From a virus, in the IMG/VR virus record IMGVR_UViG_3300025818_004904, positions 1 through 45,808 of that record: 45,808 nucleotides of DNA, one strand, 5' to 3'. Below the pieces are notes generated by a model. That model saw only the letters and a list, made by a program, of their open reading frames with translations, did not search any database and was not told the DNA's origin. A program made the position numbers and the translations under genes. Shown here piece after piece: positions 3,899-45,808 of this stretch. Numbering within the stretch: the first letter of the stretch is position 1; every line of letters begins with the position of its first letter.

Positions 3899-4103
3899 AA
3901 ACGAATGGCGTAAAAACCTGAAGGTTGGCGACCTCGTGAGGATGAAGTCTGGACACCTTGCGATCCTGACCGAGGTATATATGCGCTCAACTGGACCTGG
4001 CGGCAGCGAGTATCCGCACGTCAAAATATTATATTGCGATGATCAGTCAGCCGGCGGGTGTAGTGCTTGGCGAGTTGCGGAGGTTCTCAATGAAGCCAGG
4101 TGA
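3891..4103 (+). CDS. GDLV-family small protein, 70 aa
   Basis: The N-terminal part has KVGDLVRMKSG and the protein ends VAEVLNEAR, the two conserved ends of this family. I chose ATG 3891 over TTG 3888 because of AGAGG at 3880-3884. The last codons (GAGGTTCTCAATGAAGCC) encode EVLNEA and at the same time hold the ribosome-binding site and start codon of the next paralog, an arrangement repeated near 6300. Function unknown. Confidence 0.82.
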   Translation: MSKNEWRKNLKVGDLVRMKSGHLAILTEVYMRSTGPGGSEYPHVKILYCDDQSAGGCSAWRVAEVLNEAR

Positions 4104-4296
4104 TTTAGTTAGAATCTCAGACTGGGATGTCAAAGCCAATTTAGGCTGGAATCCCATCGGGCTTGTCTTATCAGAGCCTGAAGTGAAGAACCACGGCACA
4201 ACCTGTGTCCTTGTTGATTGGCTTGAATCACCTGACACCGAGTATTACTCAGTCCATCATTTAGAAGTTATTTCAGGGTCAGGAAAAGGAGAATAA
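4090..4296 (+). CDS. GDLV-family small protein, 68 aa
   Basis: Starts MKPGDLVRISDWD, has a central IGLVLSEPEV strand and ends near LEVISGSGKGE. It overlaps the upstream paralog by 14 bases. The DNA around its start is nearly identical to that of the paralog at 6307, so these are recent duplicates or gene-converted copies. It directly precedes the EcoRI-like endonuclease gene, which starts two bases after its stop. Role unknown. Confidence 0.85.
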   Translation: MKPGDLVRISDWDVKANLGWNPIGLVLSEPEVKNHGTTCVLVDWLESPDTEYYSVHHLEVISGSGKGE

Positions 4297-5768: not shown

Positions 5769-5789
5769 AGTGTTGTAAGGGAGAGAGTG

Positions 5790-5984
5790 ATGAGTGACTT
5801 CAATATGTTTCATGGCGAGCGTGTCAAGTACGCAGGGTACCACCCCCTTTTCCGTGGTAAGAAAGGTGTGGTTGTCGGCGGCGACCACCACAACATTCGT
5901 GTGGAGTGGGAAGGTCATGAAGACTATCCCCCCCGTCTTCACGAGGCGTGGGAAATTGTTTGGCTCGTAGATAGCGGAGAGTAG
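5790..5984 (+). CDS. SH3/KOW-like small protein, 64 aa
   Basis: The centre reads GKKGVVVGG...IRVEWEG, a turn-strand pattern typical of KOW/SH3-like barrels, with GERVKYAG in place of GDLV. It is the first gene after promoter 5741. ATG 5790 is preferred to GTG 5787 because of AAGGGAGA at 5778-5785. It is a divergent member of the surrounding family. Function unknown. Confidence 0.78.
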   Translation: MSDFNMFHGERVKYAGYHPLFRGKKGVVVGGDHHNIRVEWEGHEDYPPRLHEAWEIVWLVDSGE

Positions 5985-5986
5985 TT

Positions 5987-6154
5987 ATGAAAATGAAAGA
6001 GGGTGATCTGGTTCGGCACCTTGAGGATGGTCAAGCAGGAGTTATTGTTCTGTCTTGGGGTGTTATGGATGTTGTAGAGGTTCTCTGGAATGATGGTGAA
6101 GTCAGGGGACAGAACCTCTGCGAACTGGAGTTGATCAATGCAGCAAATAAATAG
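5987..6154 (+). CDS. GDLV-family small protein, 55 aa
   Basis: Encodes KMKEGDLVRHLEDG, then AGVIVLSWG and a C-terminal LCELELINAANK. The start lies two bases after the previous stop. The CTGGAG near its end serves as ribosome-binding site for the overlapping next gene at 6138. One of the shortest complete members of the family, so it may define the minimal domain. Function unknown. Confidence 0.8.
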   Translation: MKMKEGDLVRHLEDGQAGVIVLSWGVMDVVEVLWNDGEVRGQNLCELELINAANK

Positions 6155-6320
6155 GTTCGGTGTCGGTGCCCTAGTCAATGTTGATAAGCATTACAACAAG
6201 ACTTTGGGTATGATTGTTCGTCAAAGCCGTGGGTACAACTGGATTGTCAAACGTATGAACGACGGTCAAAATGTTCTAGCCCACGAAGACAATATGGAGG
6301 TGGTCAGTGAAGCCAGGTGA
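6138..6320 (+). CDS. GDLV-family small protein, 60 aa
   Basis: N-terminal FGVGALVNVDKHYNK replaces GDLV, followed by LGMIVRQSRG and a C-terminal DNMEVVSEAR. It overlaps both neighbours by 14-17 bases. Its end (GAGGTGGTCAGTGAAGCC) is nearly the same DNA as the end of the gene at 3891 and again contains the next gene's start. Confidence 0.8.
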   Translation: MQQINRFGVGALVNVDKHYNKTLGMIVRQSRGYNWIVKRMNDGQNVLAHEDNMEVVSEAR

Positions 6321-6468
6321 TTTGGTTCGGCATCGAGGGAACAAAGAATTATACCTCATACGAAAAATCTTTGAAGCCAGGGGTGAGATTATATGGGTCA
6401 ACCTAGAAGGTATGCCCGAAAACAAGATTCATTATCCAGAATCTCTAGAACTAATACAAAAAGCTTGA
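6307..6468 (+). CDS. GDLV-family small protein, 53 aa, GTG start
   Basis: Reads MKPGDLVRHRGNKELYLIRK and ends SLELIQKA. The GTG start lies inside the 3' end of the previous paralog, with GAGGTGG as ribosome-binding site. The TGA stop is inside the -35 box of the promoter at 6465, so coding and promoter information overlap. Confidence 0.78.
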   Translation: MKPGDLVRHRGNKELYLIRKIFEARGEIIWVNLEGMPENKIHYPESLELIQKA

Positions 6469-6492: not shown

Positions 6493-6511
6493 AAGATGTA
6501 AGGAGAGAGAA

Positions 6512-6667
6512 ATGTCGGTTCAAGAACACATCGAAAACATCCTCAACGCCGAAGGTCAAGGCGCACTTGACGCTTGGTATGTTGCCATCCACGAGCACCC
6601 TCAAAGTGCTATGGATATCCACGATGAGGTTGTTGATCACCTTGTCGCTAACACCTTCATGTACTAA
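6512..6667 (+). CDS. Small helical protein, 51 aa
   Basis: A short acidic, helix-prone protein (ILNAEGQGALDAWYVAIHEH is typical). It does not carry the GDLV signature of its neighbours. It is the first gene after promoter 6465, with AAGGAGAGAG as ribosome-binding site. I do not recognise it. Confidence 0.68.
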   Translation: MSVQEHIENILNAEGQGALDAWYVAIHEHPQSAMDIHDEVVDHLVANTFMY

Positions 6668-6677
6668 GGAGAGAGTG

Positions 6678-6941
6678 GTGCTTTACGGCGAAGAACTTCT
6701 CAAGTCAATTCAGAACCGCTGCCGTATCCAGCCTGGTATGCTGATTCGCAGCCGACCAGAAGGTTTTGGAGAGAATGCCCCTCACGGCGGTAAGGTTGCT
6801 CTTGTCACGAAGGTGTCTCCTGGCTGTAAGTTTAGCCAAGACTACGAAGGTGCAGAAGAACACATCTTTTATGTCTGTGAGCCCTTTGACGGCACAAATG
6901 AGTTCGTAGATTATGTTTGCAATATGGAGCAGGTATCGTGA
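6678..6941 (+). CDS. GDLV-family small protein, 87 aa, GTG start
   Basis: RIQPGMLIRSR takes the place of PGDLVR, followed by GKVALVTKVSPG, and the protein ends VCNMEQVS. GTG 6678 is chosen over GTG 6675 because AAGGAG at 6666-6671 then has six bases of spacing. Overlaps the next gene by four bases. Confidence 0.75.
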   Translation: MLYGEELLKSIQNRCRIQPGMLIRSRPEGFGENAPHGGKVALVTKVSPGCKFSQDYEGAEEHIFYVCEPFDGTNEFVDYVCNMEQVS

Positions 6942-7198
6942 AGGTCGGGCAGATTGTAAAAATAACACCCAAGGCTTTAAACAAGTTCGCTCCTGGCATC
7001 CGCAAACGACTTGAAGGCTCAATTGGTCTGGTGGTCAAGGAGAAGTATGACCTCTCCTATAGGATTGACCAAGACAAACTCCCAGAGCGGGTCAAGGTTT
7101 ATCCATCTGCTGTTCAGTTCAATGAACTAGAAGACATTATGGGTTGCGAGGACAACACTATCATGCTCTTTGCAAATGAGGCAGAGGTCTTATCATGA
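6938..7198 (+). CDS. GDLV-family small protein, 86 aa, GTG start
   Basis: MKVGQIVKITPKALNKF at the start, GSIGLVVKEKYD in the middle and NEAEVLS at the end give the family pattern. The GTG overlaps the previous stop (GTGA). GAGGTCTTATCATGAAT at its 3' end again encodes EVLS and supplies the ribosome-binding site and start of the next gene. Confidence 0.78.
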   Translation: MKVGQIVKITPKALNKFAPGIRKRLEGSIGLVVKEKYDLSYRIDQDKLPERVKVYPSAVQFNELEDIMGCEDNTIMLFANEAEVLS

Positions 7199-7392
7199 AT
7201 CCAGGTGATTTAGTTCGCATTAGAAAGACAGCGATTGACGAGTATTCAATTGACTGGTTTATTTATCTCGCAGAAAAAAAGGCTCCTCTGCTTTTGATGG
7301 AAAAGATTAATAAGCAGCACTGGAAAGTTATGCGACCTGACGGCAGCACCTGCTTTCTTTCAGAGCGGAAACTTACGAAGAGGCTGTGGTAA
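7195..7392 (+). CDS. GDLV-family small protein, 65 aa
   Basis: Begins MNPGDLVRIRKTAIDEY and later has HWKVMRPDGS, a strand-turn typical of the family's second half. It overlaps the upstream gene by four bases (ATGA) and the next by one (TAATG). The C-terminus diverges from the LEVS ending. Function unknown. Confidence 0.82.
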   Translation: MNPGDLVRIRKTAIDEYSIDWFIYLAEKKAPLLLMEKINKQHWKVMRPDGSTCFLSERKLTKRLW

Positions 7393-7628
7393 TGCAACGA
7401 GAAACATACAACTCACGGCTCAATATGAATCCAGACAATGTCAAGCCAGGAACGCTACTACGGGCAAAGAAGTGGTGTCGAAACAATATCACTATTCGCA
7501 AGAATGGCGAGTATGCTATCATTGTACCAGCAAAAGAAAAGTATTCTGAGTATGATGTTATGTTCCCCAGCGGGATGAGGATTATGTATATGGCGATCAA
7601 CTGGGAGGTGATGAGCAGTGTTGATTAA
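7392..7628 (+). CDS. GDLV-family small protein, 78 aa
   Basis: A 14-residue N-terminal tail precedes VKPGTLLRAKKWC, then GEYAIIVPAKEK and a C-terminal INWEVMSSVD. ATG 7392 is supported by GAAGAGG at 7377-7383; GTG 7386 is too close. GGGAGGTGATG near its end forms the ribosome-binding site for the gene at 7618. Confidence 0.77.
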   Translation: MQRETYNSRLNMNPDNVKPGTLLRAKKWCRNNITIRKNGEYAIIVPAKEKYSEYDVMFPSGMRIMYMAINWEVMSSVD

Positions 7629-7857
7629 AGATAAGATGTGGAAAGTCCAGCAGCCTGGAACTATTTTACGAGCCCGTCATAGTGCTCGCCGTGGTCAGTT
7701 GGCTTTGGTTCTTGCGAGACCCTACTCCGGCCCTCGCCCAAGCAATGGCTATCCCCCCAACCAGTATGTAAAGATGCAGATGATCTCAACCGGCGAGAGG
7801 ATTGAGGAATCACTCACTAACGCCAACAACTGCTGGGACATCGTTAGCGAACCCTGA
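7618..7857 (+). CDS. GDLV-family small protein, 79 aa, GTG start
   Basis: QQPGTILRARHSARRG, GQLALVLARPYSG and a C-terminal NCWDIVSEP follow the family order. GTG 7618 is favoured by GGAGG upstream, although TTG 7621 or ATG 7636 could be used. Overlaps the upstream gene by 11 bases and is the last gene before a new promoter. Confidence 0.75.
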   Translation: MLIKDKMWKVQQPGTILRARHSARRGQLALVLARPYSGPRPSNGYPPNQYVKMQMISTGERIEESLTNANNCWDIVSEP

Positions 7858-7890
7858 CGGCAAACAAAAACTATAATAATAAAAAAACCC

Positions 7891-7899
7891 TGCTATACT
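7891..7899 (+). promoter_or_regulatory. Extended -10 promoter
   Basis: TGCTATACT is an extended -10 (TGn plus TATACT) about 20 bp before ATG 7919. No convincing -35 box is visible; the upstream stretch is A/T-rich. Confidence 0.55.
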
Positions 7900-7918
7900 T
7901 TACAAAAAGGAGAAAGTT

Positions 7919-8080
7919 ATGAGCAACCCAGAACTTAAGCCAGGAACCATGGTACAACACCCAGCATCAGGCGACACTGGTCAGCTACTAGGACCTTTTG
8001 TTCGCAAGGGCGAGCGATGGTGGACTGTGAATTGGCAAGAGGGCGGCACCCTAGCACACAAAGAAGACGAAATCCAATAA
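7919..8080 (+). CDS. GDLV-family small protein, 53 aa
   Basis: LKPGTMVQHPASGDTGQLLG is followed by RWWTVNWQEGGT and ends HKEDEIQ. It has its own promoter (7891) and AAAAGGAGAAAG ribosome-binding site. The Trp-rich second strand resembles SH3-like barrels; fold inferred only. Confidence 0.75.
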   Translation: MSNPELKPGTMVQHPASGDTGQLLGPFVRKGERWWTVNWQEGGTLAHKEDEIQ

Positions 8081-8085
8081 ATCAT

Positions 8086-8113
8086 TAGACACAGAAAAAA
8101 CCTGTGTTATAAT
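8086..8113 (+). promoter_or_regulatory. Sigma-70-type promoter with 16-bp spacer
   Basis: TAGACA at 8086-8091 (five of six to TTGACA), a 16-bp spacer and consensus TATAAT at 8108-8113, with TGT as extended -10. The spacer length matches the eight main cassettes, but the leader differs. Confidence 0.7.
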
Positions 8114-8131
8114 GACGTGGAGGTTGCTCTT

Positions 8132-8335
8132 ATGGCTCTCAAGTCAAAATACAGCCCTGGACAACTCGTCGAGATTACGATTGCCGGGCAACGCTATGTT
8201 GGGCTAGTTTTATCAACTACCCCAGCACCACGAAGAGCAATGAGCCCGATGTTAAAAGTCGAATGGACTGGCGAAGCCCCTCGTGATTATCAAGTTGAGT
8301 ATATCTCAGAAGAGGGTTTGCGGCTGGTGAAATAA
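8132..8335 (+). CDS. GDLV-family small protein, 67 aa
   Basis: KYSPGQLVEITIAGQRYVGL is followed by LKVEWTGEAP and the C-terminal YISEEGLRLVK. ATG 8132 is placed eight bases after GGAGG (8119-8123); the upstream in-frame GTG overlaps that site. Last member of the first array. Confidence 0.77.
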   Translation: MALKSKYSPGQLVEITIAGQRYVGLVLSTTPAPRRAMSPMLKVEWTGEAPRDYQVEYISEEGLRLVK

Positions 8336-8388: not shown

Positions 8389-10215
8389 ATGCCTATTAGT
8401 AGCAAAAACAAAAGTTTAGTTATATGGTTTATCGTTGTTGTTGCTGCTTTTTTCGTGTTGAGCGTCGGGACATTCGAGCCTCCCACTACAGTTGAGAAGG
8501 TCTCCTACACACAGATAATCAAGATTGTCGAGGAAGCCGAAGAAGCCAATAAGGACGCCTCTATTCTCATTCAGGGAAACCAATGGGAACTAAAAATAGA
8601 GGGCAAAACCTATATTACAACGGCTCCTTTAACTGATAAAACAATAGAAGACCTATCCAAGCACAAGAACCTAGAGATAAGGTTTTTGGAGCCCAAGCAG
8701 CCATCCATCTGGGTGACTGCCCTAATATCGTGGCTTCCGTTCTTAATAATATTTTATTTTGTTTATCGCTTTTTTAAGAACGCTCCAAAACTAGGCGGCG
8801 GAGGCGCTGGACGACTTGACGACTTTGGGAAGTCAGGTGCTACAGTCATTATGCCGGGTCTAGACGCCTACAAGTTTGATGACGTTGCTGGCTGCGACGA
8901 AGCCAAAGAAGAACTGGAAGACCTTGTTGAGTTTTTGCGGAACCCAAAAAGATTTACAGATATGGGCAGCAAACTTCCAAAAGGTGTTCTATTACACGGG
9001 CCTCCTGGAACAGGCAAGACACTACTAGCCAAAGCAATGGCTGGCGAAGCAGAAGTCCCGTTCCTATTGGCTGCTGGCTCAGACTTCGTAGAAATGTTTG
9101 TTGGCGTAGGTGCTTCCCGTGTCCGTGATTTATTCGACCAGGCTTATCAACTTGCTCCCTGCGTAGTCTTCATTGATGAGATCGACGCCATCGGCAAGAA
9201 GCGTGGCGGACCTGGGGGCGGAGGCAATGACGAGCGAGAGCAGACACTCAACCAAATGCTTGTCGAAATGGACGGCTTCGCAGACAACTCAGGCATCATC
9301 ATTTTAGCGGCTACAAACCGAGTAGAAATGCTTGACCGAGCCCTTACCCGCCCTGGACGCTTTGACCGCAAAGTTTCGGTTGGATTGCCCGATGTAAATG
9401 GGCGGCAACAAATATTAAAGATACACACACGCAACGTCCCCGTTGCTGAAGACCTAGACCTAGAACTCATAGCCAAAACAACACCGGGCTTCTCAGGTGC
9501 TGACCTATCCAACCTCGTCAATGAGGCTTCCATCATAGCAGCCCTAGACGAAGCACCCGTAGTTGAGAACTACCACTTCGACCAAGCCAGAGATAAAGTC
9601 ACTATGGGCAAACCTCGCAAGTCAATGAATATGAGCGAGGAGTCTAGACGTGCTACAGCAATCCACGAAGCGGGACACGCTCTGTTGGCTTACTACCTAG
9701 AGGACGCTGACCCTCTACACAAGGTCACCATCATTCCTCACGGCAGAGCCCTCGGCTTAACAATGCAACTCCCAGAAGACGACAAATATTCGTGGAGCAA
9801 AAAAGAAAACATAGCAAGAATCAAAGTATTGCTGGGTGGCTACATCGCAGAGAAAATGTTTTACGGGATTGAAGGCACATCAACAGGCGTATCAAATGAC
9901 TTATTACGAGCCAAACAAATAGCCGAGACAATGGTTAAGGACTACGGAATGGGCTCAGTCGGTCCAGTTTATTTCGGCAATGCCGACGCTTACGGCAATC
10001 GTGGTGCTGATATGTCTGACTTCACCAAAGAGCAGTTCGACACAGCCGTCAATGAGATTATGACCCAAGCCCTGCGGGAAGCAGAAGAACTGCTCAATGA
10101 AAAGCGAGAGCACATCGTCATTCTAACCAATATGCTCTTGGAGCAGGACACAGTCCTAGAGGAAGAGTTGGAAGGTATGTTCGGTCTCCTCGACATTTAT
10201 TTTGAGGAAGACTAA
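8389..10215 (+). CDS. ftsH: ATP-dependent zinc metalloprotease FtsH
   Basis: Membrane-anchored AAA+ protease that unfolds and degrades proteins. The 608-aa protein looks complete: membrane segments at about 9-27 and 106-126 flank a periplasmic domain, Walker A GPPGTGKT is at 204-211, Walker B VVFIDEID at 259-266, and the second region of homology [14 protein letters not shown] is present. The zinc site is HEAGH at 426-430 with Asp504 (VSNDLL) as likely third ligand, so it should be active. It lacks the long C-terminal tail of host enzymes. A phage FtsH could remodel the host protease pool or membrane quality control; cyanobacterial photosystem repair is one known host role for FtsH, but nothing here indicates that host. 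It is a single-gene unit with a recurrent element upstream. Confidence 0.97.
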
Positions 10216-10979: not shown

Positions 10980-11229
10980 ACGAGCGGCAAAAAAGAAAAA
11001 AGATAAAGCCCAAGCACAGCAACAGCAAGAGCAACTGAAAAAACAAATGAACATGTTTGACAGATTGCCAGAAGCATGTAATACTTGCGGCGAAGAATTC
11101 CCAAAGACCCGTGAAGCCCATATGTCTTGGCGAGTCACAGTGCGAAACAAAGAACAACAAGTTAGGCTATTCTGCCCTGACTGCCTAGAGAAAGCAAAAG
11201 AATTTGTGGAGGAACACAATGAAGTTTAA
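10948..11229 (+). CDS. Lys-rich zinc-ribbon protein, 93 aa
   Basis: The first 35 residues are Lys-rich with a Gln run, and the C-terminal half has CNTCGEEF and FCPDCLEKA, four cysteines in CxxC pairs that likely bind zinc. A basic tail plus zinc ribbon suggests nucleic-acid or ribosome binding. It overlaps the IMPDH-family start by 11 bases, so the two are likely coupled. Confidence 0.72.
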   Translation: MTNKKHKKKLKRAAKKKKDKAQAQQQQEQLKKQMNMFDRLPEACNTCGEEFPKTREAHMSWRVTVRNKEQQVRLFCPDCLEKAKEFVEEHNEV

Positions 11230-12259
11230 AGAAGCAGTAACTTACGACGACATGCTCTTGGTGCCCCAGTACAGCGACATCAAAAGCCGAAGTGAAGTAA
11301 ATCTTAGCAGCGATCTATCTGCCCACGTTACGCTTAACTTGCCTATTCTGTCTGCTCCGATGGACACAGTATGTGAAGGGGAGATGGCGGTCACCATGGC
11401 ACGTAATGGCGGCATGGGAATCATTCATCGCTACAACAGCATCGATGAGCAAGTAAGACTAGCTAGAGAGGTTTCAGCCCGAGGCGAGAGTGTTTTTGCT
11501 GCTGCTGTGGGAGTCACTGGCGATTACCAAGAGCGAGCAGCATCTCTTATTGATGTTGGTGTTAATACATTGTGTCTAGATGTCGCTCACGGGCACCACA
11601 TCTTGATGAAGAATGCCCTCCAACATCTACGAGCGAAGTTTGGATCTTCTATTACGCTGATCGCAGGGAATGTCTGTACCGTAGAGGGAGTAAATGATCT
11701 TGCTGACTGGGGTGCTGATGCTGTCCGAGCCAACATTGGCGGCGGAAGCATTTGCTCAACCCGCATCGTCACGGGTCATGGACTCCCAGGACTCCAGACC
11801 ATTTTTGATTGTGCTCGAACTGACCGAGATGTGAAGATCATTGCTGACGGCGGTATCAAAACCTCTGGCGACATTGTGAAAGCTCTAGCTGCTGGTGCTG
11901 ACTTTGTAATGTGCGGCTCTCTCCTTGCGGGAACCGAAGAAAGCCCAGGACTAGTCATCACCATGCCTGACGGCACCCGAATGAAAGAGTATCGAGGCAT
12001 GGCTTCCAAGGATGCCCAAATGAGTTGGCGAAATCGGTCATCAACTCCAGAAGGTGTTGCTTCCTACATTCCTTACAAGGGAAGTGTCGTAGATATTCTC
12101 CGTGATTTGGAAGGCGGCATTCGCAGCGGACTATCCTATACAGGTGCTCGCAACCTCGCCGAACTCCAGAACAATGCTCAGTGGTCTCGCCAGACTTCAG
12201 CAGGAACTGTTGAGAGCGGCACCCACATTCTCACTGCTCAAGATGGGCGGAGGAAATAA
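11219..12259 (+). CDS. IMP dehydrogenase/GMP reductase family protein
   Basis: A 346-aa TIM-barrel enzyme of purine metabolism. The start [15 protein letters not shown]-like region, the catalytic loop GGGSICSTR with Cys179, [20 protein letters not shown] and YRGMASKDA are all diagnostic. There is no CBS domain insert, so it has GMP-reductase-like length, but the C-terminus [13 protein letters not shown] resembles IMPDH (ITSAGLRES). The flap [12 protein letters not shown] lacks an obvious Arg-Tyr dyad. I therefore leave the direction (IMP to XMP, or GMP to IMP) open. ATG 11219 has GGAGGAA upstream. A phage copy could raise or rebalance guanine nucleotides for DNA synthesis. Confidence 0.93.
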
Positions 12260-16692: not shown

Positions 16693-19065
<2,373 letters not shown>

Positions 19066-20935: not shown

Positions 20936-21361
20936 ATGCGAGCAACAATTAGTTTCGATATCGAACTCGACAAAGTAGAAGAGACAATGAGTGCCCTGGT
21001 AAGTCAGCAGTCATCTGCCTTGCGAGTAGCAGCAAACATCTTGGACAATGCGGGAAGCGCAACCCTGCTAGAGGAAGTGACTGAAGCGATTGACCTGCTC
21101 CAGGAAGCAACTTCACAACTCCAGCAGTATCAGCAGATGCTGACCTCTTTTGAGAAGGCAAAGTTTGAGACTATGCTTCCGCAACAGGCTCCTGCATCAA
21201 CCCCAGTTCAAACACAGGCTGTTACTGAGGCAGCAAAAAACATTGAAGGACTCCAGGAGACCCTAAAGGCAATGAGTGATTTTGGTTCTTTTGTGGATAG
21301 GATCAATAACCAAGCACAAGAAGAGGAAGAGGCCGATGGACTACAAACCCAAGAAGGGTGA
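20936..21361 (+). CDS. Helical acidic protein, 141 aa
   Basis: After a beta-like start (RATISFDIELDKVEET) the protein is helical with Gln/Leu repeats, suggesting coiled coil, and ends in a Glu run. ATG 20936 follows AAGGAGGAC. Overlaps the next gene by 26 bases. Not recognised. Confidence 0.72.
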   Translation: MRATISFDIELDKVEETMSALVSQQSSALRVAANILDNAGSATLLEEVTEAIDLLQEATSQLQQYQQMLTSFEKAKFETMLPQQAPASTPVQTQAVTEAAKNIEGLQETLKAMSDFGSFVDRINNQAQEEEEADGLQTQEG

Positions 21362-21596
21362 TTTAGTATATCTTCCCTCGAATATTATGATTATCGGGGA
21401 AGGACTTGCTCAGAATACCAGCGTACCCGATCGATGGCTGAACCTGATTGAGCCAGTCATGGCTGTGGTAGTTGAGCCAAATTATAATAACGAAAGCATA
21501 TATCATAAGATTCACCTTAAGGGTGATAACTGGCTTGTCAGAACTATAGACACATTGGAGGTTATTACAAGTGATAAGCGTAACAGAAGTATTTGA
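21336..21596 (+). CDS. GDLV-family small protein, 86 aa
   Basis: MDYKPKKGDLVYLPSNIMII at the start, MAVVVEPNYNN in the middle and TLEVITSDKRN near the end give the full family pattern. GAGGAAGAGG lies just before the ATG. GGAGGTTATTACAAGTG near its end supplies the next ribosome-binding site, as in the main arrays. It lies outside both arrays. Confidence 0.78.
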   Translation: MDYKPKKGDLVYLPSNIMIIGEGLAQNTSVPDRWLNLIEPVMAVVVEPNYNNESIYHKIHLKGDNWLVRTIDTLEVITSDKRNRSI

Positions 21597-26951: not shown

Positions 26952-27491
26952 GTGAACATATGCATTGGTCTTTACAAAGGCGAGGGACGCCTACATAACG
27001 CCATCGTAAGGCGCTGGACCAAGAGCATCTACTCACACGCAGAAATGATCCTACCCGATAGAACCTCCATAACTATTTTCCCGTTTAGTCTGAAAGGCAT
27101 CCGACGAGAACCATTCAAAATGAAAGACGAGAAGGACTGGGATTTTATCTGCGTACCAGTAAATCCTCACCAACTCTCAATCATCGAAAGGTTCTATGAA
27201 GACACCAAAGGACAGCAGTATGATTGGACAGGGCTTCTAGCTTCACAACTCGTGCCCTTCCATATCAAACACAAGAACCGCTGGTACTGTTCTGAATGGA
27301 TAGCATATGCCCTACGACTTGCCGGCATTGTGACAAACCTGCACGGAGAAACTGACATGTCTCCCGAAGTTTTGAGCCGCTTGTTACCTATGGGAGCAAG
27401 ATATGAAAACTATGCCGACATACCCGAATCATCAAACTGGAACGACGTCTGGGTTAAAACAACGCATTTTGGACCCGATGAAGAGAGTTAA
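26952..27491 (+). CDS. YiiX-like permuted NlpC/P60 peptidase, GTG start
   Basis: Residues 24-33 (KSIYSHAEMI) place Ser28-His29, and WYCSEWIAYAL puts Cys113 in the C-terminal half. That His-before-Cys order is typical of YiiX-type permuted papain-like enzymes. FYEDTKGQQYDWTGLLASQ matches the family's middle. Likely a cysteine amidase on peptides or lipid-linked substrates. GTG 26952 is required because the nearby ATG 26960 is out of frame; the ribosome-binding site is weak (GGGGTAG). Confidence 0.78.
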   Translation: MNICIGLYKGEGRLHNAIVRRWTKSIYSHAEMILPDRTSITIFPFSLKGIRREPFKMKDEKDWDFICVPVNPHQLSIIERFYEDTKGQQYDWTGLLASQLVPFHIKHKNRWYCSEWIAYALRLAGIVTNLHGETDMSPEVLSRLLPMGARYENYADIPESSNWNDVWVKTTHFGPDEES

Positions 27492-27504
27492 GGAGTCACG
27501 ACCA

Positions 27505-27732
27505 ATGGAAGTTGGCTGTCTCGTTGAAACTACCGACAAAATCTTCACACTGCCTTCTCACAACGAAATAGATGGCATCCATGACATCCTAGACAAAGGA
27601 ACAGTAGGCATCATTGTGAAGCGTCCAACCCACGGCAAACCACGTCAATACTTGATAAACTTTGTTGGTGGTAGAGAATATTGGATGTTTAGCAACGAAA
27701 TCCAACCGTACATGGGAGAAAAAAATGTTTGA
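27505..27732 (+). CDS. GDLV-family small protein, 75 aa
   Basis: MEVGCLVETTDKIFTLP at the start, GTVGIIVKRPTHG in the middle and WMFSNEIQPYM near the end follow the family order. AAGGAG lies ten bases before the ATG. Overlaps the nuclease gene by eight bases. Confidence 0.74.
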   Translation: MEVGCLVETTDKIFTLPSHNEIDGIHDILDKGTVGIIVKRPTHGKPRQYLINFVGGREYWMFSNEIQPYMGEKNV

Positions 27733-28515: not shown

Positions 28516-28834
28516 TTATAAACAGGGCGATCTGGTAAGGTTCGTTCAGAACAATGGTTGGAGTATGTGTCTTCCAACCGACACAAACGGAGGTTACGGA
28601 AAAGAGGTAAGAGAATATGTTATAACAGCAATTCCTTTGGATTTCTTCGATGCGTTTTATGATTTAGAAGAAAAACTAGGGTTGATCGTCAAAGTGATCA
28701 GAAACAAGCTGGAACAACCGCTCGGTTATCAAGTACAAGTTGGTAAAGACGTTTTATATTTTAGATCAGTTTTAGCCGAAAAATACTTTAGACCTGTGGG
28801 AGAACCAACTGATGAAAGTAGGGGATCACGTTAG
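28505..28834 (+). CDS. GDLV-family protein, 109 aa, GTG start
   Basis: YKQGDLVRFVQNNGWSM at the start and KLGLIVKVIRNK in the second half; a roughly 45-residue insertion separates the two. The end (LAEKYFRPVGEPTDE) differs from the LEVS ending. GTG start overlaps the upstream gene. Overlaps the next paralog by 23 bases. Confidence 0.74.
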   Translation: MKTNYKQGDLVRFVQNNGWSMCLPTDTNGGYGKEVREYVITAIPLDFFDAFYDLEEKLGLIVKVIRNKLEQPLGYQVQVGKDVLYFRSVLAEKYFRPVGEPTDESRGSR

Positions 28835-28979
28835 ATTTAAGACGTTTGACTGTGAAGAAGAATGGAAGACTGGAATTCTAGTTCGTTATGACGAGTTTCT
28901 CAGAGTCGGTGAGATTGTAAAAGGTGAGTTTACTTTTTATGCTCCCCGCAGGTTGATCGAACCAATGGGATTTCTGTAA
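28812..28979 (+). CDS. GDLV-family small protein, 55 aa
   Basis: MKVGDHVRFKTFDCEEEWKT followed by GILVRYDEF and FYAPRRLIEPMG. Compact version of the family directly after a longer member. GTGGGAG lies before the ATG. Confidence 0.75.
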   Translation: MKVGDHVRFKTFDCEEEWKTGILVRYDEFLRVGEIVKGEFTFYAPRRLIEPMGFL

Positions 28980-36710: not shown

Positions 36711-37754
36711 ATGGCTGTTGATTTCAAAACGTTCGTTTCCTTAGCACCCGCAGTGAGCGCTGCTCGCCTGCCTGTCCTGCTCCGTGGTCGCCACGGTATT
36801 GGCAAGAGCCAGGTTGTGTATCAGCTTGCTGCTAACATGGGCTTGCCTGTTATTGAGCGGCGTGCTAGCCAGATGACAGAGGGTGATCTTGTTGGTCTCC
36901 CCAGCATTGATGGCAACCGCACGAGCTTTAACCCGCCTGACTGGTTCAAAGAAGCTTGTGAAGAGCCAGCAGTTCTCTTCCTTGATGAAGTTGATCGTGC
37001 TACTCTGGAAGTCCGCCAAGGGATTTTCGAACTGACTGACAGCCGTAAGCTGAATGGTCATCATCTTCACCCTGACACGATTGTGTTTGCTGCCATCAAT
37101 GGCGGGGAACATGGGGAACAATACCAAGTTAATGAAATGGACCCAGCAGAACTTGACCGATGGTCAGTCTGGGATATTGAGCCCACTGTTGAAGACTGGC
37201 TTGCATGGGGCAAGGAAAACGTTGATAGCCTGATCTGGGATTTTGTGAACCAGAATAGGGATCACCTTGAGCATAAGGGCGAAATTGAGCCGAACAAGCG
37301 CTATCCCAGCCGTCGTAGCTGGAAGCGGCTGAACGATGTGCTCGCAGGTGCTGGCTATCTTGAAGAAGCTGGTCCTGAAATGTTCACCCTTGCTCAGTCC
37401 TTCGTCGGCTTCGAAGCTGCTGTCGCTCTCAATGACTTCGCTCAGAACTATGAAAGGGTTGTGACGGTTGCTCAGCTTCTCGCTGGTGAGCGTAAAGACG
37501 CTCTGGCTGCCTTCTCCCTGAATGAGCACTGTGCGATGGTGGAAAAGATTGAAGCAGAAGAAGTCTGCAAGGAAGAACTCAGCGCCGAACACATCAGTGC
37601 TCTGGCTAGCTACTTCTGCGAGTTGCCCTCTGAAGCGGCAATGAAGCTCTGGACGGTCCTCAGCACCGCTGGTGTTCAGGACAACGTCATCAAGTTCCAC
37701 GGTGCTAATGATGGTGCCGTCGGTTCTCACCTCTCCAAAATCCTGGGAGCCTAA
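36711..37754 (+). CDS. MoxR-type AAA+ ATPase
   Basis: Walker A GRHGIGKS at 26-33 and Walker B VLFLDEVD at 88-95 lie in a 347-aa protein with the MoxR/AAA_5 layout (DLVGLPSIDGNRTSFNPPDW and FAAINGGEHG are typical). MoxR ATPases act as chaperones or metal-insertion factors with VWA proteins; the next gene is exactly such a protein. It has its own strong promoter, and a terminator separates it from the VWA gene, which has a matching promoter. CGT, CGC and GGT codons look commoner than in nearby genes, consistent with high expression. Confidence 0.92.
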   Translation: MAVDFKTFVSLAPAVSAARLPVLLRGRHGIGKSQVVYQLAANMGLPVIERRASQMTEGDLVGLPSIDGNRTSFNPPDWFKEACEEPAVLFLDEVDRATLEVRQGIFELTDSRKLNGHHLHPDTIVFAAINGGEHGEQYQVNEMDPAELDRWSVWDIEPTVEDWLAWGKENVDSLIWDFVNQNRDHLEHKGEIEPNKRYPSRRSWKRLNDVLAGAGYLEEAGPEMFTLAQSFVGFEAAVALNDFAQNYERVVTVAQLLAGERKDALAAFSLNEHCAMVEKIEAEEVCKEELSAEHISALASYFCELPSEAAMKLWTVLSTAGVQDNVIKFHGANDGAVGSHLSKILGA

Positions 37755-37783
37755 TCTCTCTCTCACCCTATCCCAGGTGCATT

Positions 37784-37812
37784 AGCTCAGCTTCGGCTGG
37801 GCTTTTGTTTTT
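37784..37812 (+). terminator. Rho-independent terminator after MoxR gene
   Basis: AGCTCAGC (37784-37791), TTCG loop and GCTGGGCT (37796-37803) form an 8-bp stem with one G-T pair, followed by TTTTGTTTTT. UUCG loops are exceptionally stable. Confidence 0.9.
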
Positions 37813-37830
37813 GAGGGCAGCAAATAAAAG

Positions 37831-37858
37831 TTGACAGAGTAGTATGATGTGCTAATAT
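37831..37858 (+). promoter_or_regulatory. Sigma-70-type promoter, conserved cassette 8
   Basis: TTGACA at 37831-37836, a 16-bp spacer and TAATAT at 37853-37858, then AATGTAGGGAAGAGAG before ATG 37883. Confidence 0.87.
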
Positions 37859-37882
37859 ACTAATGTAGGGAAGAGAGATATT

Positions 37883-39070
37883 ATGAGCTTTGATCTTAAA
37901 CTCCATGCTTATCGACTGCTGATGGACGAGCCCTTCTTTGCTTGTCTGTCCCGCAAGATTGAGAAGCGTGAGGATCGCAGTATCCCAACAGCAGGTGTGC
38001 TCGTCAATGAGAACACTGGTCAGTTTGAGATGATCTACAATCCTGAGTTCCTTGCTAGCCTGCCCGAGAACCAGATCAAGGGTGTTCTCAAGCATGAGTT
38101 CTATCACCTGATTTTTGAACACGTTACCAGCCGTAAGCCTGAAGGCGTTGCTCACAAGTCGTGGAACATTGCTGCTGACCTGGCTATCAACAGCCACTTG
38201 GTTGATGAGCTTCCAGAGTTTGCCTGTATGCCGGGTGTCGGTCCTTTTGAAGAACTGCCCAAGTTCAAAACGGCTGAGTGGTATCTCAAGAACATTACTC
38301 AAGATCAGGTTGATCAGTGCAATGCTCCCGGCGGTATGGACGGCGGTGAGGGCGAAGCTGGTACTGGTCAGCTTGATAGCCATGAGGGTTGGGATGAAGA
38401 AGGTGGTAGCCCTGCACAAGAAGCTGCCAACCAGATGGCTAAGGAACGACTGAAGCAAGCAATGAAGGAGGCTGCCCAGGAAGCCAGCAAGTCTCCCAAC
38501 GGCTGGGGATCAGTTTCAGGGGACCTTAAAAAAGAAATCATGAAAAGGATTGAAACGAAGGTAGACTGGAAGAAGGTACTACGATACTTCATCAAGACTT
38601 CCCAACGTGCTAACAAGAGCAGCACTGTCCGCCGTATTAACAAGCGGTATGCCTACATTCACCCAGGGAAGAAAGTAAAGCGGCAAGCAAAGATCGCAAT
38701 TGCTATTGACCAGTCTGGTAGCGTTAGTGATGAAATGCTTGAGAGCTTCTTCGGTGAGCTTAATAAACTTGCTAAGCTGGCTGCCTTCACGGTCATTCCC
38801 TTTGATACCAGCGTTGATGAGAAGCTGGTCTATGAATGGAAGAAGGGCAAGGCTCACAAAGCTGAACGGGTGATGTGCGGCGGCACCTGCTTTGATGCTC
38901 CTACCGAATATGTAAATAAGCGTGGGGACTTTGACGGTGTTATTATTTTGACGGACATGGAAGCTCCTGCTCCCAAAGCCTGCAAAGCCCAGCGGATGTG
39001 GATGACTGATGAGCGGGGTGCTAGCCGTCCCTACTTCCAAACCCGTGAGCGTGTGATCGCAATCTCCTAA
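37883..39070 (+). CDS. VWA-domain metallopeptidase-like protein (DUF2201 type)
   Basis: HEFYHLIFEH at 71-80 is an HExxH site in the N-terminal domain, followed by WNIAADLAINSHL, the layout of VWA-like predicted metallopeptidases. A Gly/Asp-rich linker leads to a C-terminal VWA domain with a MIDAS motif DQSGS starting at Asp276, and LTDMEAPAP near the end. At 395 aa it is complete. It is the natural partner of the MoxR ATPase upstream. In bacteria such pairs remodel or activate other proteins; what the phage pair acts on is unknown. Its separate identical-type promoter suggests matched, early expression. Confidence 0.9.
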   Translation: MSFDLKLHAYRLLMDEPFFACLSRKIEKREDRSIPTAGVLVNENTGQFEMIYNPEFLASLPENQIKGVLKHEFYHLIFEHVTSRKPEGVAHKSWNIAADLAINSHLVDELPEFACMPGVGPFEELPKFKTAEWYLKNITQDQVDQCNAPGGMDGGEGEAGTGQLDSHEGWDEEGGSPAQEAANQMAKERLKQAMKEAAQEASKSPNGWGSVSGDLKKEIMKRIETKVDWKKVLRYFIKTSQRANKSSTVRRINKRYAYIHPGKKVKRQAKIAIAIDQSGSVSDEMLESFFGELNKLAKLAAFTVIPFDTSVDEKLVYEWKKGKAHKAERVMCGGTCFDAPTEYVNKRGDFDGVIILTDMEAPAPKACKAQRMWMTDERGASRPYFQTRERVIAIS

Positions 39071-39389: not shown

Positions 39390-39683
39390 ATGACTTATTT
39401 GCCCCTCCCAGCCAATGTCTGCCTTAAGGAATCTCCTATACATGGTATGGGTCTGTATGCGAAAGAAGATATAGAAAAAGGACACGTCTTTGGAATCACC
39501 CACGTATCTGACTATGAGTTTGAAGACGGATATATCAGAACTCCTCTAGGCGGATTCTTCAACCACTCAGAAGATCCTAACTGCGAAGCCTATATCGAGG
39601 GAAGATACATAAAACTAAAAACAATAAAAGAAGTAAAGAAAGACGAAGAGCTAACTGCCCATTATTGGCTTTACGATTTATGA
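39390..39683 (+). CDS. SET-domain protein, 97 aa
   Basis: SPIHGMGLYAKEDIEKG at the start, FFNHSEDPNC at 57-65 (NHS..PNC) and DEELTAHY near the end are the three landmarks of SET lysine methyltransferases. At 97 aa it is a minimal SET domain with no pre- or post-SET part, as in some viral enzymes. It may methylate host or virion lysines. The ribosome-binding site is poor (AGGGC). Confidence 0.88.
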   Translation: MTYLPLPANVCLKESPIHGMGLYAKEDIEKGHVFGITHVSDYEFEDGYIRTPLGGFFNHSEDPNCEAYIEGRYIKLKTIKEVKKDEELTAHYWLYDL

Positions 39684-39716: not shown

Positions 39717-39908
39717 ATGGGACTTCAACCAGGTGACTTAATAGAATTCACATGGGCTGCTAGCTTTGGCGACAGAACAGAACTTGCTATATTCATCGGA
39801 TGGGAAAGAGAAGATATAAAAGCAAGGGCAAAAATACTGTATAATACAAAAGTACTCTGGGTTAATCACCAGTTCATAAGGAAAGTAGAAGATGACTCCG
39901 AAGTTTAA
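39717..39908 (+). CDS. GDLV-family small protein, 63 aa
   Basis: MGLQPGDLIEFTWAASFG opens the second array. The core AIFIGWEREDIK and the ending HQFIRKVEDDSEV follow the family order. No clear ribosome-binding site; TATATAAATT lies directly upstream. Overlaps the next gene by 17 bases. Confidence 0.76.
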   Translation: MGLQPGDLIEFTWAASFGDRTELAIFIGWEREDIKARAKILYNTKVLWVNHQFIRKVEDDSEV

Positions 39909-40164
39909 AGTAGGCGACTTAGTACAATATGACCTGAGTCTAGAGTTCGAAGGCGATGCCCTCGACCCTAATGCCCCGGCGGATCAGTACATGCGTCAAG
40001 GGATCATCACGGGGTTCGTGGATGTAGAGACAGGTCAGCGTCTAAACGGCGACTTTGCAACGGATGATAAAGTGGTCGCTGCGTCCATCTTAGGTCCTAA
40101 GGGTTCAGACGTCATCCTCATGACTAACCTAGAGATGGTTTCAGCGGCTCGCAGCGAATGCTAA
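39892..40164 (+). CDS. GDLV-family small protein, 90 aa
   Basis: KFKVGDLVQYDLSLEFEG at the start, a roughly 20-residue insertion, GIITGFVDVETG, and the end TNLEMVSAARSEC. GGAAAG before the ATG. Overlaps the next gene by seven bases. Confidence 0.8.
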   Translation: MTPKFKVGDLVQYDLSLEFEGDALDPNAPADQYMRQGIITGFVDVETGQRLNGDFATDDKVVAASILGPKGSDVILMTNLEMVSAARSEC

Positions 40165-40388
40165 CATCCGGCGACCTAGTCAGAATCAAAGTACCAAACC
40201 TTGACTACTTCAATAACAAGCTCGCAATCGTTCTCCACCTTGCTAGCAAACAACAGCATTACGACAATGACGGCAACCTGCACACAACCCGCTACTATCT
40301 TATCAACCTATCAGGCTCCCAAGCCGATCACATCTTTTCACAACACCAGCTTGAACTGCTTTCAAAGGCATACGAAATAAATGACTAA
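40158..40388 (+). CDS. GDLV-family small protein, 76 aa
   Basis: MLTSGDLVRIKVPNLDYF, KLAIVLHLASKQ and HQLELLSKAYEIND give the family ends. The SKA ending is shared with the next paralogs and differs from the SEAR ending of the first array. Confidence 0.82.
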   Translation: MLTSGDLVRIKVPNLDYFNNKLAIVLHLASKQQHYDNDGNLHTTRYYLINLSGSQADHIFSQHQLELLSKAYEIND

Positions 40389-40608
40389 CAACAAAGCATT
40401 CATCTTCGAAGTAGGAGATCTAGTCAAATGGAAGCAGCAAAGAATAACAGAAGACTTTGTCGAGGAGTACGAAAATGTCGGCATCGTCATCGGGCATGAA
40501 CGACGCTACGCAAAGGAAGAGCATGTCTGCAAAGTGCAAGTTGGCAGCCAAACCTACAGCATCCGCACGCATATGCTTGAACTCGTATCAAAGGGCACAA
40601 AAGAATAA
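40381..40608 (+). CDS. GDLV-family small protein, 75 aa
   Basis: FEVGDLVKWKQQRITEDF, VGIVIGHERRYAK and HMLELVSKGTKE. Start overlaps the upstream gene by eight bases; the stop overlaps the next ATG by one base (TAATG). Confidence 0.82.
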   Translation: MTNNKAFIFEVGDLVKWKQQRITEDFVEEYENVGIVIGHERRYAKEEHVCKVQVGSQTYSIRTHMLELVSKGTKE

Positions 40609-40838
40609 TGAGCAACAAAACATACGGCAGCGGATTCCGTTATAATATAGGCGACCTTGTTAAGTTTAGACATGACCGTATGAATGTAATAGATTATAAG
40701 GTAGGAATAGTAGTAGAACAGAGTTATAGAATCACTAGAGATAATATGTTTAAAATCTTAGTGAAGGATAAATACTACTGGAAATCTGCGGATAAGATTA
40801 CTTTGCTGTCTAAGGCTACGAAAGGCTCTTCTAAATGA
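40608..40838 (+). CDS. GDLV-family small protein, 76 aa
   Basis: YNIGDLVKFRHDRMNVID, YKVGIVVEQSYRI and DKITLLSKATKGSSK. Codon use is more A/T-rich than in the preceding paralog, so copies may have arrived at different times. Confidence 0.82.
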   Translation: MSNKTYGSGFRYNIGDLVKFRHDRMNVIDYKVGIVVEQSYRITRDNMFKILVKDKYYWKSADKITLLSKATKGSSK

Positions 40839-41173
40839 TTCACAACGATAAACAGCAGTCATGTGCTGGTAAGACTTTGCGGAGTGACCCAACATATGGT
40901 TCAGCACCTTCACAACACTCGCCCGCACGAGCCGACCGCATCGACAGGTTCGTAGCCAGTCGGGAACCTTCCCAAGGGGTTATCAAATATTGTAAAAGAT
41001 CTTATAGGGTTGGAGATTTATTGAGAGGGCTATCAACTGCGTGGAATCCTAATGGATTGGTTTTGATTACGAGGTCCTCTGGGCATTGCTCATACTTTTA
41101 TGGGATTAACTGCCTTACGGGCGATGAGCACCTTTTCAATCTTCAACATTATGTAGGGGTTGATGAGGTTTGA
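40835..41173 (+). CDS. GDLV-family protein with N-terminal extension, 112 aa
   Basis: The first 55 residues are polar and unrelated to the family; YRVGDLLRGLSTAWNPNG starts the usual domain and NGLVLITRSSGH continues it. The ending differs (HYVGVDEV). ATG overlaps the upstream stop (ATGA). The extension DNA (40860-40975) is more GC-rich than its surroundings and may be a later insertion. Confidence 0.75.
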   Translation: MIHNDKQQSCAGKTLRSDPTYGSAPSQHSPARADRIDRFVASREPSQGVIKYCKRSYRVGDLLRGLSTAWNPNGLVLITRSSGHCSYFYGINCLTGDEHLFNLQHYVGVDEV

Positions 41174-41178
41174 CTGCC

Positions 41179-41367
41179 GTGCCAGCCGTTGCCGGCTTTG
41201 ACTGCAAAGTTGGAGACTTGATAAAGTGCAAGCAATTCCCAATGACTCCTCTGCTTGTTGAGAATATTATGTACCATGGCTGCGATGTTGTCTATGTTGT
41301 TAGGCATGACGGCTGTGCCTGCTATTTACTTGAGACAGATATTGTCGACCTGTTATCTAAATCTTAA
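41179..41367 (+). CDS. GDLV-family small protein, 62 aa, GTG start
   Basis: FDCKVGDLIKCKQFPMTP, then VVYVVRHDGCA and DIVDLLSKS. GTG 41179 has GATGAGG at suitable spacing; TTG 41170, which overlaps the upstream stop, is an alternative. Five cysteines are unusual for the family. Last member of the second array. Confidence 0.74.
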   Translation: MPAVAGFDCKVGDLIKCKQFPMTPLLVENIMYHGCDVVYVVRHDGCACYLLETDIVDLLSKS

Positions 41368-41867: not shown

Positions 41868-42212
41868 ATGGTTTATAAGTTATTGTTTTTGCTCGTTTTT
41901 ATGAGCCCCTATAATGCTGAATATAATCTACAGCAAATCGAATGCCCACGATGGGCTCCTGGTGGTGATGAAATCCTACCAATGAACATCACCCTTTCCC
42001 CACAACTCAAACTTCAGAACGCAATGAGGTGTTACTGTCAAGTTGTGAAATACAAGGAGCGTGAATGTATCCGCAATGGTGTCCCAGAAAGAATCTGTCA
42101 AAGAAGAACTGAAGACTGGGTTACTAATAATCTAAAACTTAACCAAAACGTCATCCAGGATAATGTGATGATGAGACTGCCTAAGAGGAACCTAATCATC
42201 AATGAAAACTAA
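41868..42212 (+). CDS. Secreted Cys-rich protein, 114 aa
   Basis: A signal peptide is visible at 1-18 (YKLLFLLVFMSPYNA), then a soluble domain with about five cysteines (ECPRW, CYCQV, EC..N, RICQRR) that could form disulfides in the periplasm. It overlaps the pilin-like gene by 11 bases, suggesting the two act together. Not recognised. Confidence 0.7.
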   Translation: MVYKLLFLLVFMSPYNAEYNLQQIECPRWAPGGDEILPMNITLSPQLKLQNAMRCYCQVVKYKERECIRNGVPERICQRRTEDWVTNNLKLNQNVIQDNVMMRLPKRNLIINEN

Positions 42213-42609
42213 AGGCTTCGCTTTAATTCTTACTCTAGTTGTTGCAACAGTTATTAGCACTTCTGCTATTTTAATCTATACTATGACTAGGGACGAGATG
42301 CAGATCGCCGCCAACAACCGCAGGGTGTTGCAATCAAAACTTGCAGCAGTCTCAGGACTCACTCACTTCAAGAGTATGGAACTATTCTACGAACACTTAA
42401 GACAACAAGCAGACGCTCTGGGTCGTGAGAAGATTATTGTCATTGAGGAGACCGCACTGGGCGACCGAACATTTTATAGAGTTGAAGTCAATCTATGTTG
42501 TGGATTAGGTGAGAACGAGTTCATGGTTAAGAGCACTGGGTACTACAAGGACAATGGTCGTATTATTTCAGAGCATGTAAAGCGTTCTTTATTCAGGACT
42601 GTAGACTAA
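42202..42609 (+). CDS. PilX-like minor pilin, 135 aa
   Basis: KTKGFALILTLVVATVIST fits a prepilin signal with cleavage after Gly5 and a hydrophobic N-terminal helix. It lacks Glu at +5, as in GspK/PilX-type minor pilins. The following NNRRVLQSKLAAVSGLTHF matches the PilX N-terminal continuation. A type IV pilus or type II secretion pseudopilin in a phage is very unusual. It could interfere with host pili used by rival phages, or derive from a host gene. The partner gene upstream is secreted as well. Confidence 0.75.
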   Translation: MKTKGFALILTLVVATVISTSAILIYTMTRDEMQIAANNRRVLQSKLAAVSGLTHFKSMELFYEHLRQQADALGREKIIVIEETALGDRTFYRVEVNLCCGLGENEFMVKSTGYYKDNGRIISEHVKRSLFRTVD

Positions 42610-44611: not shown

Positions 44612-45808
44612 ATGAGTACTTTCAGAGAACATAAGACTATCGCCGATCGAGCAGCGAATGACCGCTCTCGGCATAGGAAAAAAGTAGAAAAAGCAATCAA
44701 GGAAAGCATCAAGGATGTTGTTGCCGAAGAGAGCATCATTGGTCAAAGTGGTAAAAAGAAAATAAGGATTCCAATCAAAGGAATCAAAGAACACCAGTTT
44801 GTCTATGGAAACAATGAAAAGAATAAAAGAGTTGGCTCTGCCCAAGGTAAGGATGTAAAACAAGGGCAACGAATAGGGAAAACTAATCCCCGCAAAGGAC
44901 AGGGGCAAGGAAACAAGCCAGGCAATAAGCCTGGTGAGGAAATGTACGAAATTGAGATGTCCCTGGAGGAGCTAGCGGAATATCTCTTTGCTGATCTTAA
45001 TCTCCCTGAACTAGAAAAGAAGCAGTTCAAGTTTATTACTGAAGAGAAGATGAAACGTAAAGGCAAGAGACCTTACGGTATTCGTCCTAGACTTTCTAAA
45101 AAGGAAACAATAAAACAGAAGATAAAAAGAAAGAAAGCAGCAATCAAAGCTGGAACACACGATCCTGAAAGTGGTGAGCGTTTCCCATTTCATGAAAGTG
45201 ATCTAAGATACAAGCACATTGCTCCTGTAGAAAAGGAAAACACTACAGCAGTTATTTTCTTTGTAATGGATGTCTCTGGGTCTATGACTAAGTCTAAGAA
45301 GTTCTTGGCTCGTAGTTTCTTCTTTCTTTTATACCAATTTTTGAATCACAAGTATTCTTCAGTTGATGTTGTTTTTGTTTCCCATACAACTGACGCAAAA
45401 GAAGTCAATGAAGAGCAATTCTTCACCCGTGCTACTGGTGGCGGGACAATGGCTTCTTCTGGGCTTGAAAAAGTCAAGGAAATCATAGACAAGAGATATC
45501 ATCCAAATAACTGGAATATCTACACTTTTTATTGTGGCGATGGCGAGAACTGGGGCTCTGATAATGATAAGACTATAGAGCTTTTTAGGGAACTAAAAGA
45601 AATAAACCAAATGATGTGCTACACAGAGATTGGCGAAGGTAACGATAACTCACGTATAAACTCTTTATCATTCTTTGCCGAGTTTTCTGAAAACAGTTTA
45701 TGGAATCGTATTGAGACTCTGACAGACAAAAGACTTAAGAAAAACCGATTGATAACCCATGATAATATTTGGTCATCTTTCAAGAGACTGTTCGGAGGGA
45801 AAGCATAA
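44612..45808 (+). CDS. yhbH: YhbH/YeaH-type (DUF444) VWA protein
   Basis: This matches the bacterial YhbH/YeaH family along its length: HRKKVEKAIKESIKDVVAEE, KIRIPIKGIKEHQF, ELAEYLFADLNLPELEKKQF, a VWA MIDAS DVSGSM at 220-225, RSFFFLLYQFLNHKYSSVDV, GGGTMASSG and NIYTFYCGDGENW. At 398 aa it is complete and ends on the last base. In bacteria this gene works with the PrkA kinase and SpoVR in stress and stationary-phase control; neither partner is visible here, though they could follow. The N-terminal helix resembles the leader motif of its neighbours, but it is also native to the family. Confidence 0.95.
   Translation: MSTFREHKTIADRAANDRSRHRKKVEKAIKESIKDVVAEESIIGQSGKKKIRIPIKGIKEHQFVYGNNEKNKRVGSAQGKDVKQGQRIGKTNPRKGQGQGNKPGNKPGEEMYEIEMSLEELAEYLFADLNLPELEKKQFKFITEEKMKRKGKRPYGIRPRLSKKETIKQKIKRKKAAIKAGTHDPESGERFPFHESDLRYKHIAPVEKENTTAVIFFVMDVSGSMTKSKKFLARSFFFLLYQFLNHKYSSVDVVFVSHTTDAKEVNEEQFFTRATGGGTMASSGLEKVKEIIDKRYHPNNWNIYTFYCGDGENWGSDNDKTIELFRELKEINQMMCYTEIGEGNDNSRINSLSFFAEFSENSLWNRIETLTDKRLKKNRLITHDNIWSSFKRLFGGKA

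Follow-up and report, generated by a model that had tools for sequence, protein, structure and literature searches.

A joint sequence between tandem SH3-like mini-protein genes of uncultured marine phages and probable cassette exchange at it

In a 45.8-kb virus record (here called the window, meaning the whole stretch of DNA that was analysed), seven consecutive overlapping ORFs on the plus strand at 39717–41367 form a series of small genes, designated array B. The first-pass annotation had recognized these genes by a GDLV-type pattern, had pointed to a second set of the same domain about 31 kb away, and had proposed two independent expansions, each with its own C-terminal ending, L(L/V)SK in one and EVxSEAR in the other. 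This raises the question of how such arrays are built, and of what their recurrent gene ends represent. The explanation that we consider likely as a whole is that the arrays consist of one protein family, that their genes are packed together by translational signals, and that genes are exchanged at the joints between them.

Two arrays of one small-barrel family

The series of seven overlapping GDLV-type genes was confirmed, with overlaps of 1 to 17 nt at all six junctions. The encoded proteins are 63–112 aa long and carry a GDL[VIL] motif close to the N-terminus, or, in gene 6, after an extension. Gene 1 (39717–39908), an SH3-like mini-protein of 63 aa, matched the seed model with an E-value of 1.4e-12, being itself a seed, and a later model with 5e-4. 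Gene 2 (39892–40164; 90 aa) shares 17 nt with the end of gene 1, and its counterpart at 9621–9851 of the related locus L002 shares 36% identity over 67 aa. Orthologues of gene 3 (40158–40388; 76 aa) were found in L002, L005, L006, L010, and L072, while gene 4 (40381–40608; 75 aa) is predicted by AlphaFold modeling (pLDDT 86) and a fold search to encode an SH3-like barrel. Gene 5 (40608–40838; 76 aa) has an orthologue at L002 10299–10520, with 52% identity and a dN/dS of about 0.21, and gene 6 (40835–41173; 112 aa), which encodes an SH3-like domain behind the N-terminal extension, pairs with L002 10581–10853 at an SH-aLRT of 100. Gene 7 (41170–41367; 65 aa) starts with TTG and was matched by the later model with an E-value of 0.013; its orthologue was not found among the relatives compared.

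Array B is located between a VWA gene and an Smr gene, a site at which SH3-like genes are also present in L002–L012 and other relatives, several of them clearly orthologous to array B genes. Other features of this region include a small SET-domain protein encoded directly 5′ of the array at 39390–39683, which is present in L005 and L072 and was not seen in L002, a MoxR-like AAA ATPase together with the adjoining VWA/metallopeptidase gene at 36711–39070, and a DUF444 (YeaH-like) protein at 44612–45808, at the contig end. A PilX-like prepilin signature at 42202–42609 (PilX_N, E 9e-5, just below the cut-off) is conserved in L007, L009, L012, and L041, and around window position 35700 L041 has about 400 additional bases between flanks that are 94%–95% identical.

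The N-terminal extension of gene 6 (40835–40996, plus strand) had earlier been described as 55 residues, unrelated to the domain and GC-richer. The ORF is indeed present in the window, and the orthologues compared are without the extension. The homologous stretch of L002, the nearest relative, forms an independent ORF of 41 aa with a stop codon that overlaps the SH3 gene's start, and by this comparison the extension is a read-through fusion with that small ORF. The GC content of the extension (49%–50%) is above that of the preceding gene (32%–35%), but it is not exceptional, because it is below that of the gene at 39892 (52%–54%) and within the range of the array. A foreign GC-rich insert as the source of the extension was not supported, given the small ORF in L002 and this GC range, and a structured RNA or a tRNA inside it was rejected on the basis of searches that gave no Rfam match and no tRNA match.

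The second set, array A, was confirmed as about 14 family ORFs at 3.67–8.34 kb on the plus strand. It was compared with locus L074, whose FtsH gene is 92% identical; the dN/dS values of most array A genes were between 0.02 and 0.25, with one gene at 0.58, and these low values, which reflect purifying selection, indicate that the ORFs are real genes. The array contains a GKKV variant (3671–3898; dN/dS 0.03 against L074), a gene with the C-terminus EVLNEAR (3891–4103), and a gene starting with MKPGDLV (4090–4296) for a predicted SH3/KOW-like barrel (pLDDT 91.6). These are followed by genes at 5787–5984 and 5987–6154 (dN/dS 0.02), by a gene with the C-terminus EVVSEAR whose protein is identical in L074 (6138–6320), and by a gene starting with VKPGDLV (6307–6468). 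Further along are the GMLI (6678–6941) and GQIV (6938–7198) variants, a gene at 7195–7392, the GTLL (7386–7628) and GTIL (7618–7857) variants, a gene on a segment absent from L074 (7919–8080), and a GQLV variant (8132–8335), for which the comparison with L074 favoured the ATG start at 8132. Solitary copies on the plus strand were a family member containing KGDLVYL and LEVITS (21276–21596; model E 1.9e-5) and two probable members at 27376–27732 (E 8.7e-5) and 28776–28979 (MKVGDHVRF; E 2.6e-4), and a profile search suggested a further single copy at 28502. The same phage contig encodes an FtsH-like AAA protease (8389–10215), an IMP dehydrogenase-like protein (11204–12259), and a GroEL chaperonin (17479–19065).

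The source of the window is a clade of large (160–200 kb) uncultured marine phages, and a T4-type gp23 capsid gene was present in 13 of 13 long contigs tested. A direct query with one array B protein returned no relatives, because members of the family diverge too fast. Relatives were gathered through neighbouring genes, with the VWA/metallopeptidase gene that precedes array B leading to 72 IMG/VR loci, a large share of them on 150–200 kb contigs, and the FtsH gene to five. Of 30 related contigs, 27 contained members found by the profile, which speaks against a chance pattern, and copy numbers at a strict cut-off ranged from 0 to 29 per contig. Altogether, the roughly 200 related loci contain about 1,700 members, with up to 24 of them in one same-strand array, and thus represent a large phage protein family of uncultured marine viruses for which a fold is predicted. 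In cultured phages, neither an array protein nor array DNA had a match, and a description of these arrays was not found in the open-licence literature.

Both arrays belong to one SH3-like/KOW-like small-barrel family of rapidly diverging single-domain mini-proteins of about 50–90 aa. AlphaFold models of one member from each array were SH3-like barrels, with pLDDT values of 86 (array B) and 92 (array A), and the nearest solved folds were those of Spt5/NusG KOW, R67 DHFR, and Tudor, with Spt5 KOW giving a Z score of 8.4 and 1.9 Å over 57 residues for the array A model. A profile built from 92 members gave weak matches to the NusG and uL24 KOW domains (E 1e-3 to 8e-3), and the Pfam KOW family PF00467, at E ≤ 0.01, matched one of the 92 members (E 0.003) and none of those in the window. 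The Pfam SH3 matches of window members were all sub-threshold and PHROGs gave nothing useful for them; among PHROG and Pfam families of known function there was no significant match to array B, the best one (E 0.011) being below the cut-off. As judged from the models, the fold is almost certainly an SH3-like barrel, a five-stranded small beta barrel of about 60 residues.

A multifunctional joint between adjacent genes

A conserved DNA joint of about 30 nt, GGAGGTTATCAGTGAAAGTCGGTGATTTGGT, connects many adjacent genes of the family; it codes for the last beta strand of the upstream gene and also holds both the ribosome site and the start of the downstream one. Translated in one frame, the joint consensus, TTGGAGGTTATCAGTGAAAGTCGGTGATTTAGT, gives ..LEVISESR*, and the next frame gives VKVGDLV. 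The C-terminal LEV(I/V) codons spell the Shine–Dalgarno sequence GGAGGT of the next gene, a few bases 5′ of its start. In the most frequent type of joint, the downstream start, RTGAARnnnGGTGAY, and the end of the upstream gene have 14 nt in common, and the upstream stop (gGTGAt) is contained in that start. The residue before the glutamate sets the next start codon, serine giving GTG and asparagine ATG, and when MKPGD replaces VKVGD the upstream gene ends in SEAR. The ending "EVxSEAR" is, in the other reading frame, the DNA of the Shine–Dalgarno sequence and the MKPGD start of the next gene.

The frequency of this arrangement was determined at loci chosen by neighbour genes, with the loci fetched by the joint pattern excluded. 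A joint of the GGAGGTnnTnARTG type was located at 117 of 194 coupled starts, and in these 117 adjacent pairs the geometry was identical, the upstream stop being the TGA within the GGTGAY of the downstream GD motif. At the same loci, 79% of the coupled genes had GGAG or GAGG within their last 35 nt, as against 30% of the uncoupled ones and 22% of controls, and the ratio of GAG to GAA at the glutamate of the C-terminal motif was 122:6 in coupled versus 34:23 in uncoupled genes (p 6e-25 and 5e-9 for these ribosome-site and codon tests); gene bodies favour GAA (526:656). DNA identity within arrays was 74%–85% in the joints and 27%–28% in the bodies, and the joint pattern was found in 17 of 22 contigs, on a single strand in each, with 0 matches in controls. 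These data make us highly confident that the joint serves at once as strand-coding sequence, ribosome site, and next start. Downstream genes would then be translated by coupling to the upstream gene.

In the window, pattern matching located two copies of the joint, each consisting of a Shine–Dalgarno sequence, an upstream-gene stop, and a downstream-gene start, at 4079–4106 and 6296–6323 on the plus strand. The (S/N)EAR ending is found in only two of the approximately 14 array A members, and these two endings are exactly the two joint copies, which shows that they originate from gene overlap and not from descent. The pattern had zero copies in array B, where other overlap types are used instead. 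The L(L/V)SK ending occurs in four of the seven array B proteins, the other three ending in KVEDDSEV, MVSAARSEC, and VDEV, and in the genes with this ending an AAGG ribosome site is perhaps contained in the SK[AG] codons. The sequence AAG was observed in 7 of 14 coupled versus 4 of 30 uncoupled LSK endings, a small sample in which many of the 14 are not of the array B type, and this comparison is suggestive only. Each of the two endings is confined to part of its array; their interpretation as subfamily signatures is rejected, and they reflect translation signals at gene boundaries.

These observations bear on the proposal that one domain expanded twice independently, each expansion acquiring its own subfamily ending. 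The array labels do cluster on the tree, with 4 changes versus 18.5 in shuffles, although near-copies alone would give this result, and joint modules occur only in array A. On the other hand, the endings are boundary signals, and several window genes group in the poorly resolved tree with their L002 counterparts and not with each other, so that array B comprises several old orthologous lineages. The tree was built on 65 usable columns, and of its 63 branches 33 are unresolved, a resolution too poor for counting expansions. The single domain family and the clustering of array labels are retained from the earlier proposal, while two separate expansions seem unlikely. As far as the sequence comparisons indicate, array B is an older, syntenic, and more vertically inherited set of paralogues and not a recent local radiation, which is suggested by its syntenic orthologues, by the pairing with L002 in the tree, and by the absence of the joint.

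Probable exchange of cassettes at the joints

The behavior of individual genes as cassettes was analyzed by comparing neighbours and by scanning for filled and empty sites, on the complete set of loci, in which those retrieved with the joint pattern were kept. Among cassettes that were 80%–95% identical between loci, the next cassette was homologous in only 22 of 120 cases, as compared to 81 of 105 for ordinary genes (p 2e-19). Matches between the arrays of different phages begin and end at joints, which is partly expected because the joint itself is conserved; the comparison of neighbours is the stronger evidence. The scan returned 19 rows, corresponding to 13 distinct events, nine of which break at most 33 nt from the GD codon, in a zone that makes up 17.5% of array sequence (p about 6e-5). 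In the clearest filled/empty pair, L047 and L069, the flanks are 100% identical over 591 bp and 99.98% identical over 13,255 bp, and the sole difference is one 176-bp cassette between 20-bp repeats. A single upstream joint leads into four different cassettes in L034, L037, L042, and L047. Array A of the window differs from L074 by an approximately 270-bp segment (7862–8131), which carries the gene at 7919–8080 between two array A genes with flanks 88%–91% identical, and from L076 by the swapped order of the pair at 6138 and 6307 and the genes at 6496–6943. From these comparisons, cassettes are very probably gained, lost, and reordered exactly at joints.

The same arrays could also have arisen by plain tandem duplication and divergence through unequal crossing-over, with the joint kept by selection on both reading frames and the ribosome site and with no exchange between phages. 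Local duplicates do exist, as there are within-locus pairs of at least 70% identity, and L002 9852 and 10299 group with window gene 40608. Moreover, the three functions of the joint could by themselves conserve it through selection on coding and ribosome binding, without recombination. However, this explanation does not account for the 98 of 120 pairs in which near-identical cassettes of different phages have unrelated neighbours, for the matching blocks that end at joints, or for the filled/empty pairs with almost identical flanks, and we regard it as improbable. Metagenome assemblies could misjoin cassettes at short repeats, though the repeats are shorter than the usual assembly k-mers, and some of the contigs may represent the same population in different variants.

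Exchange between joints would probably occur by homologous recombination between these short repeats. The stretches shared at breakpoints are 12–35 bp long, vary in length, and have no fixed core. Since the DNA differs little from joint to joint, exchange between any two of them would leave two intact genes with working start signals. Integrons likewise hold rows of single-gene cassettes that can be exchanged and that share a boundary, and the precise breakpoints and the strong conservation of the joint could be taken to mean that it is an attachment site at which a site-specific recombinase or mobile-element enzyme moves the cassettes, as integron integrases do. In contrast to integrons, the array boundary is coding and translational and the genes belong to one protein family. 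The coding and ribosome-binding functions already explain the joint, and the breakpoints track stretches of varying length and not one fixed core, which makes an enzyme of this kind very improbable. The relatives document exchange at the joints in arrays of the array A type; for array B, where the joint is absent, the support is indirect only. Such exchange offers a simple physical rule by which accessory genes of large phages can be reshuffled unbroken, with the exchange point placed at the gene end, the ribosome site, and the next start.

Possible roles and comparison with known systems

The conserved residues of the family are mostly at core or turn positions, and the proteins have pI values of 4.2–10.1 (median 6.7) and net charges between −8 and +6 (5th to 95th percentile). 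Together with the rapid turnover seen in the copy numbers, this core and turn conservation and mixed charge lead us to propose, tentatively, that the family supplies small, variable, and evolvable binding modules, whose targets in infection would most likely be host proteins. A serious rival, which we nevertheless hold to be rather unlikely, is that they are KOW-like nucleic-acid-binding factors acting in transcription, antitermination, or at the ribosome. The best fold and profile matches are to the KOW domains of NusG, Spt5, and uL24 (PF00467), but these mini-proteins differ from them in being free-standing single domains in arrays, and the range of charge and pI shows no common basic character. 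The predicted fold itself says nothing of function, since SH3-like barrels bind many ligands and a Z score near 8 can mean a common arrangement only. A host-binding role would fit a diversity-generating array, in which one coding sequence serves as C-terminal strand, ribosome-binding site, start, and recombination joint, and from which phages draw variable anti-host binding repertoires. We find this extended reading plausible but stop just short of favouring it; if true, it would represent a new kind of genome organisation, through which a phage clade equips itself with varying sets of small anti-host binding proteins.

Short repeats at gene boundaries are known from other phages. The SAS/ESAS elements of cluster K mycobacteriophages, GGGATAGGAGCCC, are located at gene starts and repeated across different gene families (Pope et al. 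2011, PMC3203893). The array joint is similar in being a short conserved sequence repeated at gene starts in a phage clade, but the two sequences differ, and while SAS precedes unrelated families, the joint is embedded in the coding sequence of each of its two neighbours, including the upstream stop and the downstream start, and links tandem members of one protein family. The promoter early stem–loop (PeSL) elements of T4-like phages reportedly act as conserved boundaries through which genes are shuffled in modules (Arbiol 2010; Comeau 2014; cited in PMC4503421). The resemblance lies in the repeated boundary element and in shuffling, and the array phages also have the T4-type gp23; PeSLs, however, are promoter–terminator motifs, while the joint is a translation signal in overlapping coding sequence. 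As described in these sources, neither SAS nor PeSL elements lie within the coding sequence of two genes of the same family.

The joint can also serve as a DNA signature for finding more such arrays. The pattern was present in at least 119 viral stretches among the matches listed, and in about 85,000 bacterial and archaeal species it was found in only five contigs, all from metagenome-assembled genomes. These five joint-bearing contigs (L198–L202), which come from marine metagenome-assembled bacterial genomes, are perhaps phage contigs binned with their hosts.
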